A stretch of 60,122 nucleotides of DNA from contig DATJAY010000010.1 of the NCBI GenBank assembly GCA_035515795.1, positions 1 to 60,122 of the forward strand, written 5' to 3'. How positions within the stretch are numbered: the first letter of the stretch is position 1; the number at the start of each line of letters is the position of its first letter. Positions 4,751-60,122 of this stretch are shown here, piece after piece. The notes under the pieces were generated by a model that worked only from the letters and a program-made list of their open reading frames with translations, was not told the origin of the DNA and searched no databases. The position numbers were made by a program, and so were the translations under genes. The stretch comes from Candidatus Acidiferrales bacterium (GTDB lineage: Bacteria; Bacteroidota; Ignavibacteria; Kryptoniales; JAKASW01).

Positions 4751-5019
4751 TTTTATTTCCCTAGTTAATTAATTTTCAATACGAATTGCATCTATTTTAC
4801 AGGCTTGGAAATTCTTGAAGTGTGGACATTTATAGAGTGAGTTCTACCTGTTTTCTTTAAATATCAGGTTTTCCGAGCAATAAGTAAATGCCCCGTCGTC
4901 AGGACGTATCCAGCATGTAATATGCAGGATTTGAGTCTGCTGCCTGATTACCGCCGTCCTCTTGAAGTAAATCCCAAACTATTCTGAAAATCTGCTAAGA
5001 AGTGCGAACTCGCTATACG

Positions 5020-34059: not shown

Positions 34060-34117
34060 TTTGCTGCTCCCTCCTGCCGAATCCATCGGCAGGATCTTAC
34101 CTTAACTTATCCCCCGA

Positions 34118-34142
34118 CCCCCTCTCTTGGAAAGAGAGGGGG
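34118..34142. repeat. REP-like palindrome, copy 2
   Basis: An 11-bp perfect stem (34118-34128 and 34132-34142) with loop GGA, core CCCCCTCTCTTGGAAAG, closely related to the copy at 31389-31423. Outer arms CTTAAC (34101-34106) and GTTAAG (34151-34156) extend the dyad. It lies directly after the stop codon of the gene at 34165. Confidence 0.78.
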
Positions 34143-34164
34143 AACCGAGGGTTAAGTCAATTTC

Positions 34165-54270: not shown

Positions 54271-57200
54271 CTACTTTAGCAATGCCTTCACTCTGTCTAT
54301 TTCCCTCTGTGCGCCGTCGACAAATTGCTTGTCGGTATGAGGCTTATCTATAATTTTCTGATACATAGCAATTGCATCATTAGGCTTGTTCATTTGCTCG
54401 TAACACTTTCCAGCCATGTAATATGACTGTGCCGCCCAATCGATCACGGCGCCCTTTGAAACTAAATAAGGAACCTTGAGAAACTCCAATATGGCATTTG
54501 CGTAATCGCCCTTGTCGTTGTAGATCGCACCCATATAATAATGAAGTTCCGCCTGATAATCACGCCCCGCCTCTTTGGCAAGATTCTGAAAAGTGAGGAG
54601 CGCCTGATCGAAATATTTCAATTCCTCATAAAGTATGCCCACTTTGATCTTCATATCCATGATGGACTCGTCGTCGGGATACTTCGATATGAATTTCCTC
54701 GCGACATCGAGTGCGCCGTCATACTGTCCCGCGCTTTCATACGAACTGATGAGCCTGCTCATTGCATCACGCAGAAGATCTCCATCCGAAAGCGAATCGA
54801 AATAAATTGCCCTGAATATGTTTATTGCATCCTGATATTTCTCCTGGGCGTAATATATGTCACCGAGTTCAAGGCGAGCCGCCGAAGCCGCCCCGCTGTT
54901 TGGAAATTTTTTCAGCAGCTCCGTCAGCTTATCCTGAGCCTTGACAAGATCTCCAAGTTCGACCAAGATTCTGGCGCCATCCAGAATCGAGACAGGGTAC
55001 GCGGCGGTTCCGTCATAATCGCTCCCCACCTTGTCCAGCAGCTTCTGTGCTTCCTCGTATTGTTTGTTCCGGATAAGATATTCGGCCTTGTCGACGAGGA
55101 ATTGCGCCAAATACTTGTCGTCTTTGCCGGGATAGTTTTTCTTGAACTTTGCCGCAGCGGCGTCTGCCGATTTGATCTCGTCGGTCTTATAATCGATCTC
55201 GATCAGCCTCGCCGCCGAAAATGCCCTGAGCGTGTCGACCGCAGTGCTCAGGATTTTTTTATAGAGCTGTGCCGCATTATCATAGTCGCCTAACTTGAGA
55301 TACGTCTCCGCGGCATTCGCGAGTGCCACTATGTCGCCGAACTTTTCGAAGAACGCAGCGCTCATCCGTTTATCGCCAAGCGATTCATAAATTTTCCCGA
55401 GCTGGTAGTATGAGTCCGTCACTTCTCGACGCGCCGAATCATCCAGCGGCGTATTCGCCGAACCCGTCACTACTTCTCCAAAAAGGTCCTTTGCTCCGTT
55501 CAAATTTCCCGATCTCAATTTGCAGTAAGCCATCTTGTAAAGGATATCCGGAGAAATGGTCTGCCATGGTTCATCATCGCCGATAGTCTGATAGGTTGAG
55601 CATGCGGTGTCATACTTCTCCGTTGAGTACAAATAATCCGCAAACTGTAACTTCACTTTTTCCTTGTATGCAGAAGGTTGAAGCTCATCAAGGACCGACA
55701 GATAAGCATCTCCGGCATCCAGATTCATTTTCTTTAAGAGTTCAGCGTAAAGCAATTGTCCTTTCAGTAAATATTTTTTAGGCGGTTGAGAATTGAAAAA
55801 ATTTTCGAGAATCGTTTTCCCGGCATCAAGAGAGTCGATGGCCATCTCCGATCGGGCAATTACAAGCTGGGCATCCGCAAGTGTCCCGTCACCAAAAGGA
55901 TCGCTTTGAACAAGCTCAGCCTGAACGATAGCTTCATGATAATCTGCAGAGCCGTAAAATGTTTTCGCTAGTATACAATTCACTTCGGGAACGTGAACCG
56001 AGTTTGGAAAGCGCTTCAGGAATGAAGCCGCGGAATCCCCGGCTCCGGCTGAATCGCGGGACTCGATCTGCATCTCGATCACTTTGAAGAGAGAATTTTC
56101 CGCGACCGAATCATTCTCGGGAGACAGGGACAGCTTTTCATAAATCGAATACGGCTCCGACTTTTCATCTTCCTTCGCCGTCGAAACTTTTTCCAGTACA
56201 TTCGCGAGGAGGTACTGCGCCGCCCTTTGAGTGTCCCCTGTCGAGATTGAGATGATCCGGCGGAAAATATCTTCCGCCTTCCTGTAATCTTTCAAATCAT
56301 TTTCGAAGAGATCCCCGATTTCAAAAAGGGTGCCTGCATTAGGCGAAATCGCCTGCTCGGAAACGATCGCCGCCAAACCGGCAACTGCATTTTTGTAGTC
56401 GATATTTTTGAAAGTTGAAACGTAATTTGAAGCGCTGTCGGCGGCATCGGCATAATCGGACTCCGGATATGATGTTAGAAGCTTACGATAGTTGTCGATC
56501 GCGTCTTCATAATTGGCGTCGCTTTCATCGAAGCAGGCAGCATAATACAAGAATGCATCCGGCCTGTCTTTGAGAATATTTTGGTATTGATAGAATGTCC
56601 TCCTCGCAAGCTCCGTATCTTTCAAGTATTTCGATTCGATATCTACTAGTTTCACGACATATTTAACGTCCGGTGTTCTCATGCGCTGAATCAAAATCGT
56701 CAGAAGCGAGTCCGCGATCTTCATTCTTTTCGCTTTGAACGCAAGCTCGGCGTAGAGATTCAGAACCCGTTCATTTGTTTCCTTGGAAGGAAAACCTTTG
56801 AGTACCGTCAACCCTTCTGAATACTTCTTCCTAGTCTGTAGGAGATCTGCAATCTTTAGTTTGTACTCCGGGAGAAGCGACTTCAGTTTGCCGGAAATGT
56901 CCTTGAATGCCGCATCGTCTCCCGTCGCGAGCAAGGCATAACTCTTCTCGAATTCAAGCCTGTCTTTTTCATCAGCTGTCAATCCGTCAACATCGATTTG
57001 GTCCGCACTCTTCAGCGCGGAGGAAAAATTTCCGGCGTCCATCTCGAGCTCGATACGTTCCAACAAGGCGTCCGTGCTTTGAGGATTTATGTTCATTCGA
57101 ATCGCGTCGTCAAAATATTTTCCCGCCTGAACTGACATTCCGCGTAATCGGTTCAGTCTGCCGAGTGCGACCAAACCCATGACTCTCACCGAATCATTGT

Positions 57201-57831
57201 CCGAGGAAAGGAGCGCCTTGAATTGGTCCTCAGCTTTAAGCTCCTGGCCGGAGCTGAAATACAGATTACCGAGCTGTAGAGTCGCCTTGAAATAGCCTGG
57301 ACTCGTGGGATATTCCTGCTCGAGGGTCAGAAGCGAAATCTCAGCACGAGACGTGTCTCCGGAGAGCTCGAAATATTTCGCGGCACTGGAGAGACTGCTT
57401 GCTGCGCGGTTATCCTTTGGATAAAAGACCTGCAGGCGCTCATATGATAATGCAGCGTTCGCATAATCTCCGTCCTTCGCGTAGGACTCTCCTGCGTTCA
57501 CCCACGCCGTCGGCGCCAGCGGATCGCTCGAGTATTGCATGGCAAAATTCTGAAAGTTAGAGGATGCTGCCGTGAATTTTTTTTGTTCGAACTGCGACAT
57601 CGCGAGATAATAATGAGCCTGCGAAGCAGACGGAGATGTCGGATATTCCTGCAGAAATTTATTGAATTGCTCCTCGGCGAGATCGTACATCTTGTTCTTG
57701 AACAATTCGAGACCGAACTTCAAGTCGGAATCGACCTGAGTATTTCCGACGACAGGGTTTTCAGTCTGCGCAAATGCTGAAGCGGCAAACGCCGACATGA
57801 ATGCAAGGACAATTATCGATCTTTTTAACAT
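54271..57831 (-). CDS. Large exported tetratricopeptide repeat protein
   Basis: 1186 residues with signal peptide MLKRSIIVLAFMSAFAASAFA. The rest is built of TPR helices in tandem: AEEQFNKFLQEYPTSPSASQA, ALSYERLQVFYPKDNRAA, AEDIFRRIISI, KLLTSYPESDYADAADS, LTELLKKFPNSGAASAARLELG and others, often with the YPxS turn of YfiO/YbgF-like repeats. Such proteins usually scaffold outer-membrane or cell-envelope complexes in the periplasm; partners cannot be read from the sequence. It is the first gene of the minus-strand block with the unknown protein and obgE. Confidence 0.9.
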   Translation of the reverse strand: MLKRSIIVLAFMSAFAASAFAQTENPVVGNTQVDSDLKFGLELFKNKMYDLAEEQFNKFLQEYPTSPSASQAHYYLAMSQFEQKKFTAASSNFQNFAMQYSSDPLAPTAWVNAGESYAKDGDYANAALSYERLQVFYPKDNRAASSLSSAAKYFELSGDTSRAEISLLTLEQEYPTSPGYFKATLQLGNLYFSSGQELKAEDQFKALLSSDNDSVRVMGLVALGRLNRLRGMSVQAGKYFDDAIRMNINPQSTDALLERIELEMDAGNFSSALKSADQIDVDGLTADEKDRLEFEKSYALLATGDDAAFKDISGKLKSLLPEYKLKIADLLQTRKKYSEGLTVLKGFPSKETNERVLNLYAELAFKAKRMKIADSLLTILIQRMRTPDVKYVVKLVDIESKYLKDTELARRTFYQYQNILKDRPDAFLYYAACFDESDANYEDAIDNYRKLLTSYPESDYADAADSASNYVSTFKNIDYKNAVAGLAAIVSEQAISPNAGTLFEIGDLFENDLKDYRKAEDIFRRIISISTGDTQRAAQYLLANVLEKVSTAKEDEKSEPYSIYEKLSLSPENDSVAENSLFKVIEMQIESRDSAGAGDSAASFLKRFPNSVHVPEVNCILAKTFYGSADYHEAIVQAELVQSDPFGDGTLADAQLVIARSEMAIDSLDAGKTILENFFNSQPPKKYLLKGQLLYAELLKKMNLDAGDAYLSVLDELQPSAYKEKVKLQFADYLYSTEKYDTACSTYQTIGDDEPWQTISPDILYKMAYCKLRSGNLNGAKDLFGEVVTGSANTPLDDSARREVTDSYYQLGKIYESLGDKRMSAAFFEKFGDIVALANAAETYLKLGDYDNAAQLYKKILSTAVDTLRAFSAARLIEIDYKTDEIKSADAAAAKFKKNYPGKDDKYLAQFLVDKAEYLIRNKQYEEAQKLLDKVGSDYDGTAAYPVSILDGARILVELGDLVKAQDKLTELLKKFPNSGAASAARLELGDIYYAQEKYQDAINIFRAIYFDSLSDGDLLRDAMSRLISSYESAGQYDGALDVARKFISKYPDDESIMDMKIKVGILYEELKYFDQALLTFQNLAKEAGRDYQAELHYYMGAIYNDKGDYANAILEFLKVPYLVSKGAVIDWAAQSYYMAGKCYEQMNKPNDAIAMYQKIIDKPHTDKQFVDGAQREIDRVKALLK

Positions 57832-58009
57832 AATTAAATATAAAGACTTACGAAGGATTGAGAAAGGGAAAGTTTAAATGAGGGGTAAGAGTAGAGCCTT
57901 AGCGGCCCGAGATGCAAAAATCTCTTCTCAAGTGATCATAATAATAAAGTCGGTACCTTTTGGCCAAATACTTGAGTGTTCAGCTTGAGCCGCTGGCTAG
58001 CCGACTCAC

Positions 58010-58789
58010 TCATACTGTTGCAAGCCATTCGCAAAGGACCGAATACGCCTTGCTACCTGGATCCAAGAAATCCATATGCCCTGTATCGGGTAACTCAACA
58101 AACTCGACACAATCGCCGGACGCTTGCGCCGCAGCAGCGTAACTTCGGGAGAGGTCAATCGGTAGAACTTCGTCGTTGACACCGTGAATAATCAATTGCT
58201 TTACACCGAGGGGCAGCAATTCAATCGGAGACGCAGCTGCATAGCGATCCGGATACTGACCATGCGATCCACCTAAAAATTCATTGACTGCGCCTTTTCC
58301 CGCGTTGAGCTCGTAGGCGCGCGCAAAATCGGTAATCGCTGCCAGACCGGCTGCCGCAACGGGCCGGACGCGAACCGGTGAAGAGATATTTGCGGGTTTG
58401 TTCCGTGCTGCTGTCCATAATGCAAGTTGACCACCTGCAGAATGTCCGGCAACGATGACCCGGTTCAAATCAAGTTCGATCCCGTCGTCCACAAGCGCCG
58501 CAAGGTGATCCACCGCTGAGGCAGCGTCGTGAAGAGTTTCAGGCCAACCTCCTCCCGGAGCGCCCACTCTTCGATATTCAATATTCCAAACTGCATAGCC
58601 CCCGGCCACAAGGTCTTTCGCTATGGCTGAGAGCGCATCTCGACCGTATGGCATCCTCCAAAAACCACCGTGAAGCAGGCACAGAACCTGAGGCCGCAAT
58701 ACATGAGGCAAGTACAAATCGCCCTCCTGGCTGTCTAGCGATCCATAACTATATGTGTGAACTGAATATGGCTGAGATATCTTTTGCAT
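58010..58789 (-). CDS. Alpha/beta hydrolase, esterase or kynurenine formamidase-like
   Basis: 259 residues. Oxyanion-hole motif HGG (40-42), nucleophile S117 in GHSAGG (115-120), D206 in GVNDEVLP and H238 in DTGHMD complete a serine hydrolase triad of the BD-FAE/kynurenine formamidase-like type. Cytoplasmic; no signal peptide. No tryptophan-degradation genes are nearby, so a general carboxylesterase is as likely. It lies next to the attC-bearing cassette; its own downstream flank (57840-58009) shows no attC, so it may be the insertion boundary rather than a cassette. Confidence 0.82.
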   Translation of the reverse strand: MQKISQPYSVHTYSYGSLDSQEGDLYLPHVLRPQVLCLLHGGFWRMPYGRDALSAIAKDLVAGGYAVWNIEYRRVGAPGGGWPETLHDAASAVDHLAALVDDGIELDLNRVIVAGHSAGGQLALWTAARNKPANISSPVRVRPVAAAGLAAITDFARAYELNAGKGAVNEFLGGSHGQYPDRYAAASPIELLPLGVKQLIIHGVNDEVLPIDLSRSYAAAAQASGDCVEFVELPDTGHMDFLDPGSKAYSVLCEWLATV

Positions 58790-58818: not shown

Positions 58819-58879
58819 GTCTAACGGCTGGGCTCAGCGGCAGCGGCCGAGCCGCTGTCCGCTGGAGCCGGTGTTAGCC
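58819..58879 (-). other. Integron attC recombination site
   Basis: A 61-bp imperfect palindrome. In the orientation of the metallophosphoesterase gene it begins GGCTAAC (R'' type, one base off RYYYAAC) and ends GTTAGAC (matches GTTRRRY). The arms CGGCT/AGCCG, CAGCGG/CCGCTG and CAGCGGC/GCCGCTG pair, with unpaired bases between blocks as in attC folds. It starts ten bases past the stop codon of that gene, the normal place for a gene cassette. Confidence 0.82.
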
Positions 58880-58888
58880 TGCATCACT

Positions 58889-59629
58889 TTACTGCATAAA
58901 ACCAGTCTGTAGACCAATTTGCCAATCAAGACGACCATTCTTGAGCGCTTGCGCAGCTGCCTTCTGACACTCGTATGGTACCGCAATCATTTCTGCCTGC
59001 CAGCAACCATTTACAAATTCTAGGATGGCGTAGCGTGCGTGATGTGACCCAGTCTCAATGATGTGATATTCCGGAAACTCATCAGCATATGCTGGTAGCC
59101 CTACGCTGCCCGGATTTACAATTAGGATGTTTTCAGACACTTCAACCAGCCTGGGAACGTGTGTATGACCACAAAGTACTACACGCGCCTTCGTTCCGCC
59201 AAGCCGCTCTATGATTTCTCTCTGAGTTGCCAATCTTGCTCGTCCGTGTTCCACGGTTTCCAGCAGGTAGGTAGTGTCGCTGGACGGTGCACCATGAATC
59301 AAGAGCACTTCCTTCTGAATTTCCATGCTGGCTGGCAAAGCTCTGAGCCAGTCTAGTTCAATGCGATTCAGTTGCTGAAAGGCATAGCTGTTGGAAGAGC
59401 CATGATATTTGGGGTCTTGATGGACTAGTTGCCGATCTTGGTTTCCAGATATTTGGATCCAGTCTTGTTCCATCAGGTATTGGATGGTCTCTTTTGGCCA
59501 AAGGGGCCCTGAGACATGATCGCCGAGATTAAGAACGCCATCTACATGTCTCGACTTGAAGTCATCCACTACTTTCTCGAGAGCGCTGATGTTTCCATGT
59601 ATATCCGAGAGTACGGCTATCTTTTGCAT
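58889..59629 (-). CDS. Calcineurin-like metallophosphoesterase, cassette gene
   Basis: 246 residues, single domain. Metal-binding motifs in order: LSDIHGN (D9, H11), LGDH (D37), SGNQD (N63), IHGAP (H112) and CGHTHVP (154-157). The closest style is the YfcE/MJ0936 type of bacterial phosphodiesterase that acts on small phosphodiesters. The gene is followed directly by an attC site, so it is very likely a mobile integron cassette. Substrate unknown; cassette-borne enzymes of this kind are usually without known partners. Confidence 0.85.
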   Translation of the reverse strand: MQKIAVLSDIHGNISALEKVVDDFKSRHVDGVLNLGDHVSGPLWPKETIQYLMEQDWIQISGNQDRQLVHQDPKYHGSSNSYAFQQLNRIELDWLRALPASMEIQKEVLLIHGAPSSDTTYLLETVEHGRARLATQREIIERLGGTKARVVLCGHTHVPRLVEVSENILIVNPGSVGLPAYADEFPEYHIIETGSHHARYAILEFVNGCWQAEMIAVPYECQKAAAQALKNGRLDWQIGLQTGFMQ

Positions 59630-59866
59630 AGTTCATCCTTTAGGAGTGCAGGCCAACGTACCGGCGCTAAGCTGCGGCACTGCAAACTCTCAACTTGCAC
59701 CGACATCGCGCCGAACCAATATTTAAATTTATTCATAACCATCTTGCGCGGTAAATTGCAGCCAGCTCATGGGGCTTGTCCCGCATTGCATTTACGCGGG
59801 ATCAGCTTGCCTGCCCGCCGTCTTTTTGGCGGGAGCGACTGGTTAAGCCGGCAACCAAACCAAGAA

Positions 59867-60122
59867 TTATTCAGAATCTATCGAACTTTTTGATTTGTCA
59901 AGATTGAACGTCAGTATTCTTTCGTCCCATAAGTATACTTCTGTCCAGCTTGCGATGTGTTGCATCACTTGTGCTTTGCGAAAATCATCGACGTTCTTGG
60001 TTAGGTGAATTACATCTTGACTAACAGTCTTTTCGACGTCGAGATATCCATCTCCGTTGACATCGCGATATTTAATCTGCCCTAACCTACGATCGAAGTT
60101 ATTAGTAGCGCTATCTCGGCTC
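59867..60122 (-). CDS. Unknown protein, C-terminal part only
   Basis: The last 84 codons of a minus-strand gene that begins beyond the right edge. It contains DVNGDGYLDV, a calcium-loop or dockerin/EF-hand-like pattern (D-x-N-x-D-x-x-x-D), followed by a helical stretch (FRKAQVMQHIASW) and VYLWDERILTFNLD. It may be a further cassette gene. The 237 bp between its stop codon and the next gene contain only weak hairpins. Confidence 0.55.
   Translation of the reverse strand, partial: SRDSATNNFDRRLGQIKYRDVNGDGYLDVEKTVSQDVIHLTKNVDDFRKAQVMQHIASWTEVYLWDERILTFNLDKSKSSIDSE

Follow-up and report, generated by a model that had tools for sequence, protein, structure and literature searches.

The locus described here lies at the right edge of a window of 60,122 nucleotides, by which we mean the whole stretch of DNA that was analysed. 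The window belongs to the genome of an uncultured Ignavibacteria-class bacterium (G000), a draft of 39 contigs that is rated 100% complete, and its last base is the end of its contig (C10). The features at this edge, all on the minus strand, are as follows, in order of coordinate:

54271..57831, minus strand: TPR-repeat protein, the flanking host gene.
57977-58002, minus strand: hydrolase cassette attC, remaining R''-L'' half, GGCTAGCCAGCGGCTCAAGCTGAACA (PWM, 20.1 bits).
58010-58789, minus strand: alpha/beta-hydrolase, BD-FAE-like, 259 aa, cassette gene (Pfam PF20434, E=1.1e-19).
58819-58879, minus strand (the gene strand): 61-bp attC of the metallophosphoesterase cassette (covariance model R1, DNA fold).
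58889-59629, minus strand: metallophosphoesterase, YfcE-like, 246 aa, cassette gene (Pfam PF12850, E=2.4e-21).
59651..59848, minus strand, outer limit uncertain: long attC of the first cassette (nhmmer, covariance model R2, PWM).
59867..60122, minus strand: lipoprotein-like gene, C-terminal part (84 aa); the first cassette gene, an open reading frame cut by the contig end.

The site behind the metallophosphoesterase has the anatomy of an attC. It begins 10 nt downstream of the stop codon, which ends at 58889, and its sequence on the minus strand, read from 58879 to 58819, is GGCTAACACCGGCTCCAGCGGACAGCGGCTCGGCCGCTGCCGCTGAGCCCAGCCGTTAGAC. The R' box (GTTAGAC, 58825-58819) is perfect, and the R'' box (GGCTAAC, 58879-58873) has one mismatch to RYYYAAC. 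Six paired bases separate an extra-helical C (58865) from an extra-helical A (58858) in the 5' arm, the same layout as in aadA-type attC sites. All attC calls in this work rest on covariance models, a profile and a PWM that were built for this analysis, and not on IntegronFinder's own model. The covariance model R1 was trained on 12 attC sites, drawn from a class 1 integron and from intI-linked arrays of relatives, with the window excluded. When the window was searched with R1, the site scored 48.5 bits on the minus strand (E=1.7e-9) and 13.5 bits on the plus strand, and it was the top-ranked R1 match genome-wide (E=1.1e-7). Folded as DNA, the recombinogenic (bottom) strand reaches -24.2 kcal/mol, compared with -12.8 (sd 2.0) for shuffles (z=-5.6), and none of the 200 shuffles folded equally well. 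The metallophosphoesterase reading frame is followed, in the same orientation, by R''/R' boxes, an L''/L' helix and extra-helical bases, as expected of a cassette. The first-pass annotation had placed an attC ten bases past this stop codon, with R''/R' boxes, paired arms and extrahelical bases as expected, and had called the unit an integron gene cassette; both position and anatomy are confirmed, the covariance model accepts the site, and the cassette reading is supported by anatomy, model and fold alike.

That the palindrome is instead a transcription terminator or a chance hairpin retains a negligible probability, since it is GC-rich and sits immediately 3' of a stop codon, as such a reading would have it, but lacks a T-run, carries both R boxes and two extra-helical bases, holds in its R' box the point at which the next gene's homology to another genome (G049, described below) starts, and differs enough in score between the two strands that the idea is refuted for practical purposes. 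A scan of all analysed loci under strict attC criteria returned, besides the 61-bp site, a single match in the window, an unrelated hairpin at 34100. This hairpin (34100-34157, CCCCCTCTCTTTCCAAGAGAGGGGG) passed a loose attC filter and was rejected by the covariance model; it is strong and GC-rich, has R-box-like ends by chance, and resembles an intergenic repeat. Neither a DNA search nor a simple R''/R' pattern turned up the 61-bp site a second time in the genome, and Rfam at gathering thresholds gave no match in the window.

The metallophosphoesterase contains the motifs DIHGN, GD..G, GNQD and GHTH and scores just above the cut-off of NCBIfam TIGR00040. Its unit is bounded by core sites, the R' box GTTGGCC (59657-59651) before it and GTTAGAC of the 61-bp site behind it. 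No orthologue of the enzyme turned up in the genus, and the nearest relatives (49% and 40%) come from two other families, both in genomes with IntI elsewhere. A scan of genome contigs gave no relative, and no cassette-borne relative was found. The protein is probably a small phosphodiesterase carried as cargo.

The search for orthologues of the alpha/beta-hydrolase within the genus was likewise negative. The hydrolase does have a relative, 84% identical, in G049, which belongs to the same class but to another family. DNA similarity between the two copies begins a few bases before a shared R' box, GTTAGRC, and stops ~10 nt short of the stop codon, while the sequence preceding the box differs between them. 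The gene is found in another genomic context with homology that runs from a core site, and on these sequence comparisons it is an integron cassette in two genomes. The R' box precedes the G049 copy, but the models accept no attC at that place, and a scan of viral contigs returned no relative of the hydrolase. Behind the hydrolase in the window we recognised the R''-L'' half of an attC with a PWM for attC halves derived from 22 attC sites of G049. Its core is mutated, and it ranks second among the PWM matches in the scanned sequence of G000, the best being an attC on contig C3. No L'-R' half of this site is recognisable.

G049 has IntI and more than 20 attC repeats of ~158 bp on the same contig. 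In the consensus of these repeats R'' pairs with R', both extra-helical bases are present, and four pairs of the L''/L' helix show compensatory changes; because of this and the adjacent IntI we take them to be real attC sites. The integron is large and chromosomal with homogeneous attC sites (contig C7:1-34000; L084, L128), and its array reaches the contig start. The long attC in the window is homologous to these repeats, and a profile built from them matches 59655-59767 (E=1.8e-8, nhmmer). Its L'-R' half (59651-59677) is clear, with a PWM score of 32.8 bits where the next unrelated match has 5.1. The R'' half is diverged and was placed by eye, as GCTTAACCAGTCGCTC...AAGCTGA from 59848 down, with an exact start that is uncertain; R'' is GCTTAAC (59848-59842), and L'' is split by a GC-rich hairpin insertion. 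Covariance model R2 recovers 59784-59652 (20 bits, E=1.2e-4) and puts R'' elsewhere, at 59784. The whole long site folds no better than shuffles (z=-0.39). GC-rich hairpins of the form CCCGCC...GGCGGG lie inside the long attC sites of both genomes (window 59805-59834; G049 L128:9635-9740).

The lipoprotein-like gene in front of the long attC appears to continue on a second contig. In the same genome, contig C20 ends within a lipoprotein-like gene of which it encodes the N-terminal 261 aa. A homologue of 346 aa in G009 matches this stretch first (35%) and, ~3 residues further on, the part at the window edge (42%). As this homologue spans both, the ends of C20 and C10 are most likely the halves of one gene. 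On C20, sdhB lies 1047 bp from the contig end, and the gene fragment starts ~260 bp after sdhB. The most likely order across both contigs is then sdhB, lipoprotein-like gene, long attC, metallophosphoesterase, 61-bp attC, hydrolase, half attC and TPR gene. A candidate attC half behind sdhB on C20 (GCATTCTTACTGCCGGAATGTTATGC, L127 ~4827-4848) received no PWM score and is not claimed.

The limits of the array were compared in ten congeners with contigs that reach far enough. In all ten, sdhB adjoins the TPR gene on its upstream side with 150-905 bp between them, and sdhA and further sdh genes lie beyond sdhB; the sdhB-TPR order was confirmed in eight of the named congener records. The congener sdhB-TPR loci gave no significant attC (best E=0.083). 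Because sdhB directly adjoins the TPR gene in these genomes, we place the insertion of an array of about three genes at this site. Together with the continuation of the cut gene on C20, this puts sdhB at one end of the array and the TPR gene at the other, and no space for intI is seen between them. The assembly gap falls within the first cassette gene, where a larger insertion is conceivable in the strict sense, and the homologue argues for ~3 residues.

To call IntI we used the cut-off of the IntI model TIGR02249, applied to 294 genomes of the class. IntI was above the cut-off in 52 of them, including G004 and G002 from the same genus, and in G000 nothing was, the best matches being split around the IntI-specific insertion. 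The two best candidate recombinases of G000, on contigs C4 and C36, lack the insertion that alignment finds in three true IntIs and were rejected as IntI on that account; their fit to XerA/XerC-type models is about as good as to the IntI model. These XerA/XerC-like proteins are encoded at L010:4618-5862 (C4) and L011:6936-7838 (C36), and the one on C4 has an extra N-terminal stretch of ~140 aa. The array has no intI gene of the kind that makes an integron complete, and since there is none, an attI site is not expected in it. An intI gene might still lie in an unassembled stretch of the draft.

Could a larger, complete integron extend past the contig end, with its integrase and attI there and the cluster as its distal end? 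The contig does end inside the array, contig breaks in draft genomes are known to split integrons, and two congeners (G004 and G002) have IntI. We nevertheless consider this very improbable, because across the break lies C20, on which the gene's N-terminal half sits close to sdhB, and because a draft rated complete has no IntI above the cut-off. The first-pass annotation, which saw no integrase, had left the choice between an array without integrase and the edge of a larger integron. Its proposed extension to the right meets the contig end and, by way of C20, sdhB, so that the array is bounded and the first option stands while the second falls. The single cassette it named holds up and needs correcting in number, as the hydrolase and the edge reading frame are cassettes too, and the further attC sites that it suggested searching for were found in the long attC and the half site. 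It had also allowed that the gene might be syntenic and attC-free in all relatives, which is not the case, as the congeners lack the array genes at the sdhB-TPR site. Its view that chromosomal cassettes are little documented in this group does not hold, given that integrons of Ignavibacteriae have already been reported and that IntI is this common in the class; complete integrons are known in Chlorobi, Ignavibacteriae and Salinibacter.

A cluster of attC sites without an integron integrase is termed a CALIN (PMC9024848). CALINs usually hold few cassettes. The array has clustered attC sites, at 58819-58879 and ~59651-59848, plus the half site at 57977-58002, where at least two are needed; no integrase above the cut-off was found in the genome, and both ends of the array are known. 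Since clustered attC sites lacking an integron integrase are what defines a CALIN, we are confident that the feature is a chromosomal CALIN of three cassettes in this uncultured member of the class Ignavibacteria. Set against the type, it has two attC sites and a half site in one orientation with few cassettes, and nothing essential differs.

How the cassettes arrived can be framed in terms of the usual cassette chemistry. Each cassette is a single gene followed by an attC. An IntI, working at another place or at an earlier time, would fold the attC bottom strand into a hairpin, read the R box and the extra-helical bases, and cut R' between G and TT, such that the cassette could be excised or inserted. 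The cassettes were probably captured via the IntI of integron-bearing relatives, of which G004 and G002 are examples, and were later stranded. A different origin is possible, although we give it the smaller share of our belief: a trans integrase may have inserted single cassettes at an attG site in the sdhB-TPR interval, with no integron remnant involved. That cassettes can enter chromosomes at attG sites is well established. The missing IntI, the small number of cassettes with two attC types, a further small cluster in another part of G000 and a congener sdhB-TPR gap free of cassettes would all agree with this origin; however, several cassettes together with differing attC types also resemble a stepwise integron array, and the intergenic region is too variable among congeners to locate the insertion point. 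For this last reason remnant and attG insertion are not separable. Both are compatible with the CALIN assignment, as the attG origin is a sub-variant of it that differs in how the cluster arose and not in what it is. More tentatively still, and rather doubtfully, we speculate that cassettes spread through the genus by trans-integrase hopping into attG-type sites without a resident integron; scattered clusters of this type are present in several congeners.

The CALIN in the window can be compared with several related systems. With the G049 integron it has in common the attC homology of the long site and the 84% identical hydrolase, whereas its three cassettes, mixed attC types and lack of IntI set it apart. 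G004, a member of the same genus, has attC sites of 59-81 bp that answer to the same model as the 61-bp site, and several of them have the CAGCGGAC arm in common with it; unlike the window, G004 has IntI, and no cassettes were recognised in its sdhB-TPR gap. The class 1 integron cassettes aadA and cmlA1 of plasmid pNDM33-1 have attC sites of 60-70 bp with arms and extra-helical bases laid out alike. The window cassettes differ from these in being chromosomal and from another phylum, with no resistance gene recognised and no integrase.

The array is an ordinary, well-formed case of a known kind and leaves existing knowledge of integrons unchanged. It offers a clean, bounded case of stranded cassettes in an uncultured Ignavibacteria lineage from the environment; the host genes on either side are identified, and ten congeners display the same site without cassettes. 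The hydrolase, at 84% identity in another family, shows cassette flow between families of the class.

Short attC sites are present in the congeners G002, G004, G006 and G007. In G004, contig C4:66000-82000 (L091) has at least four heterogeneous short attC sites and an IntI match that starts only from model position 119, and a second IntI, full-length, is on its contig C7. The second integrase-less attC cluster of G000 lies between ankyrin-repeat genes on contig C3:121372-122808 (L148:7373-8809), and consists of a long attC (122657-122808), a lipoprotein-like ORF of 366 aa and a short attC (121372-121434). Another integrase-less cluster, with NmrA-like and glyoxalase-like cassette genes, is found near a contig end in G007 (contig C12, L149:6612-10828).
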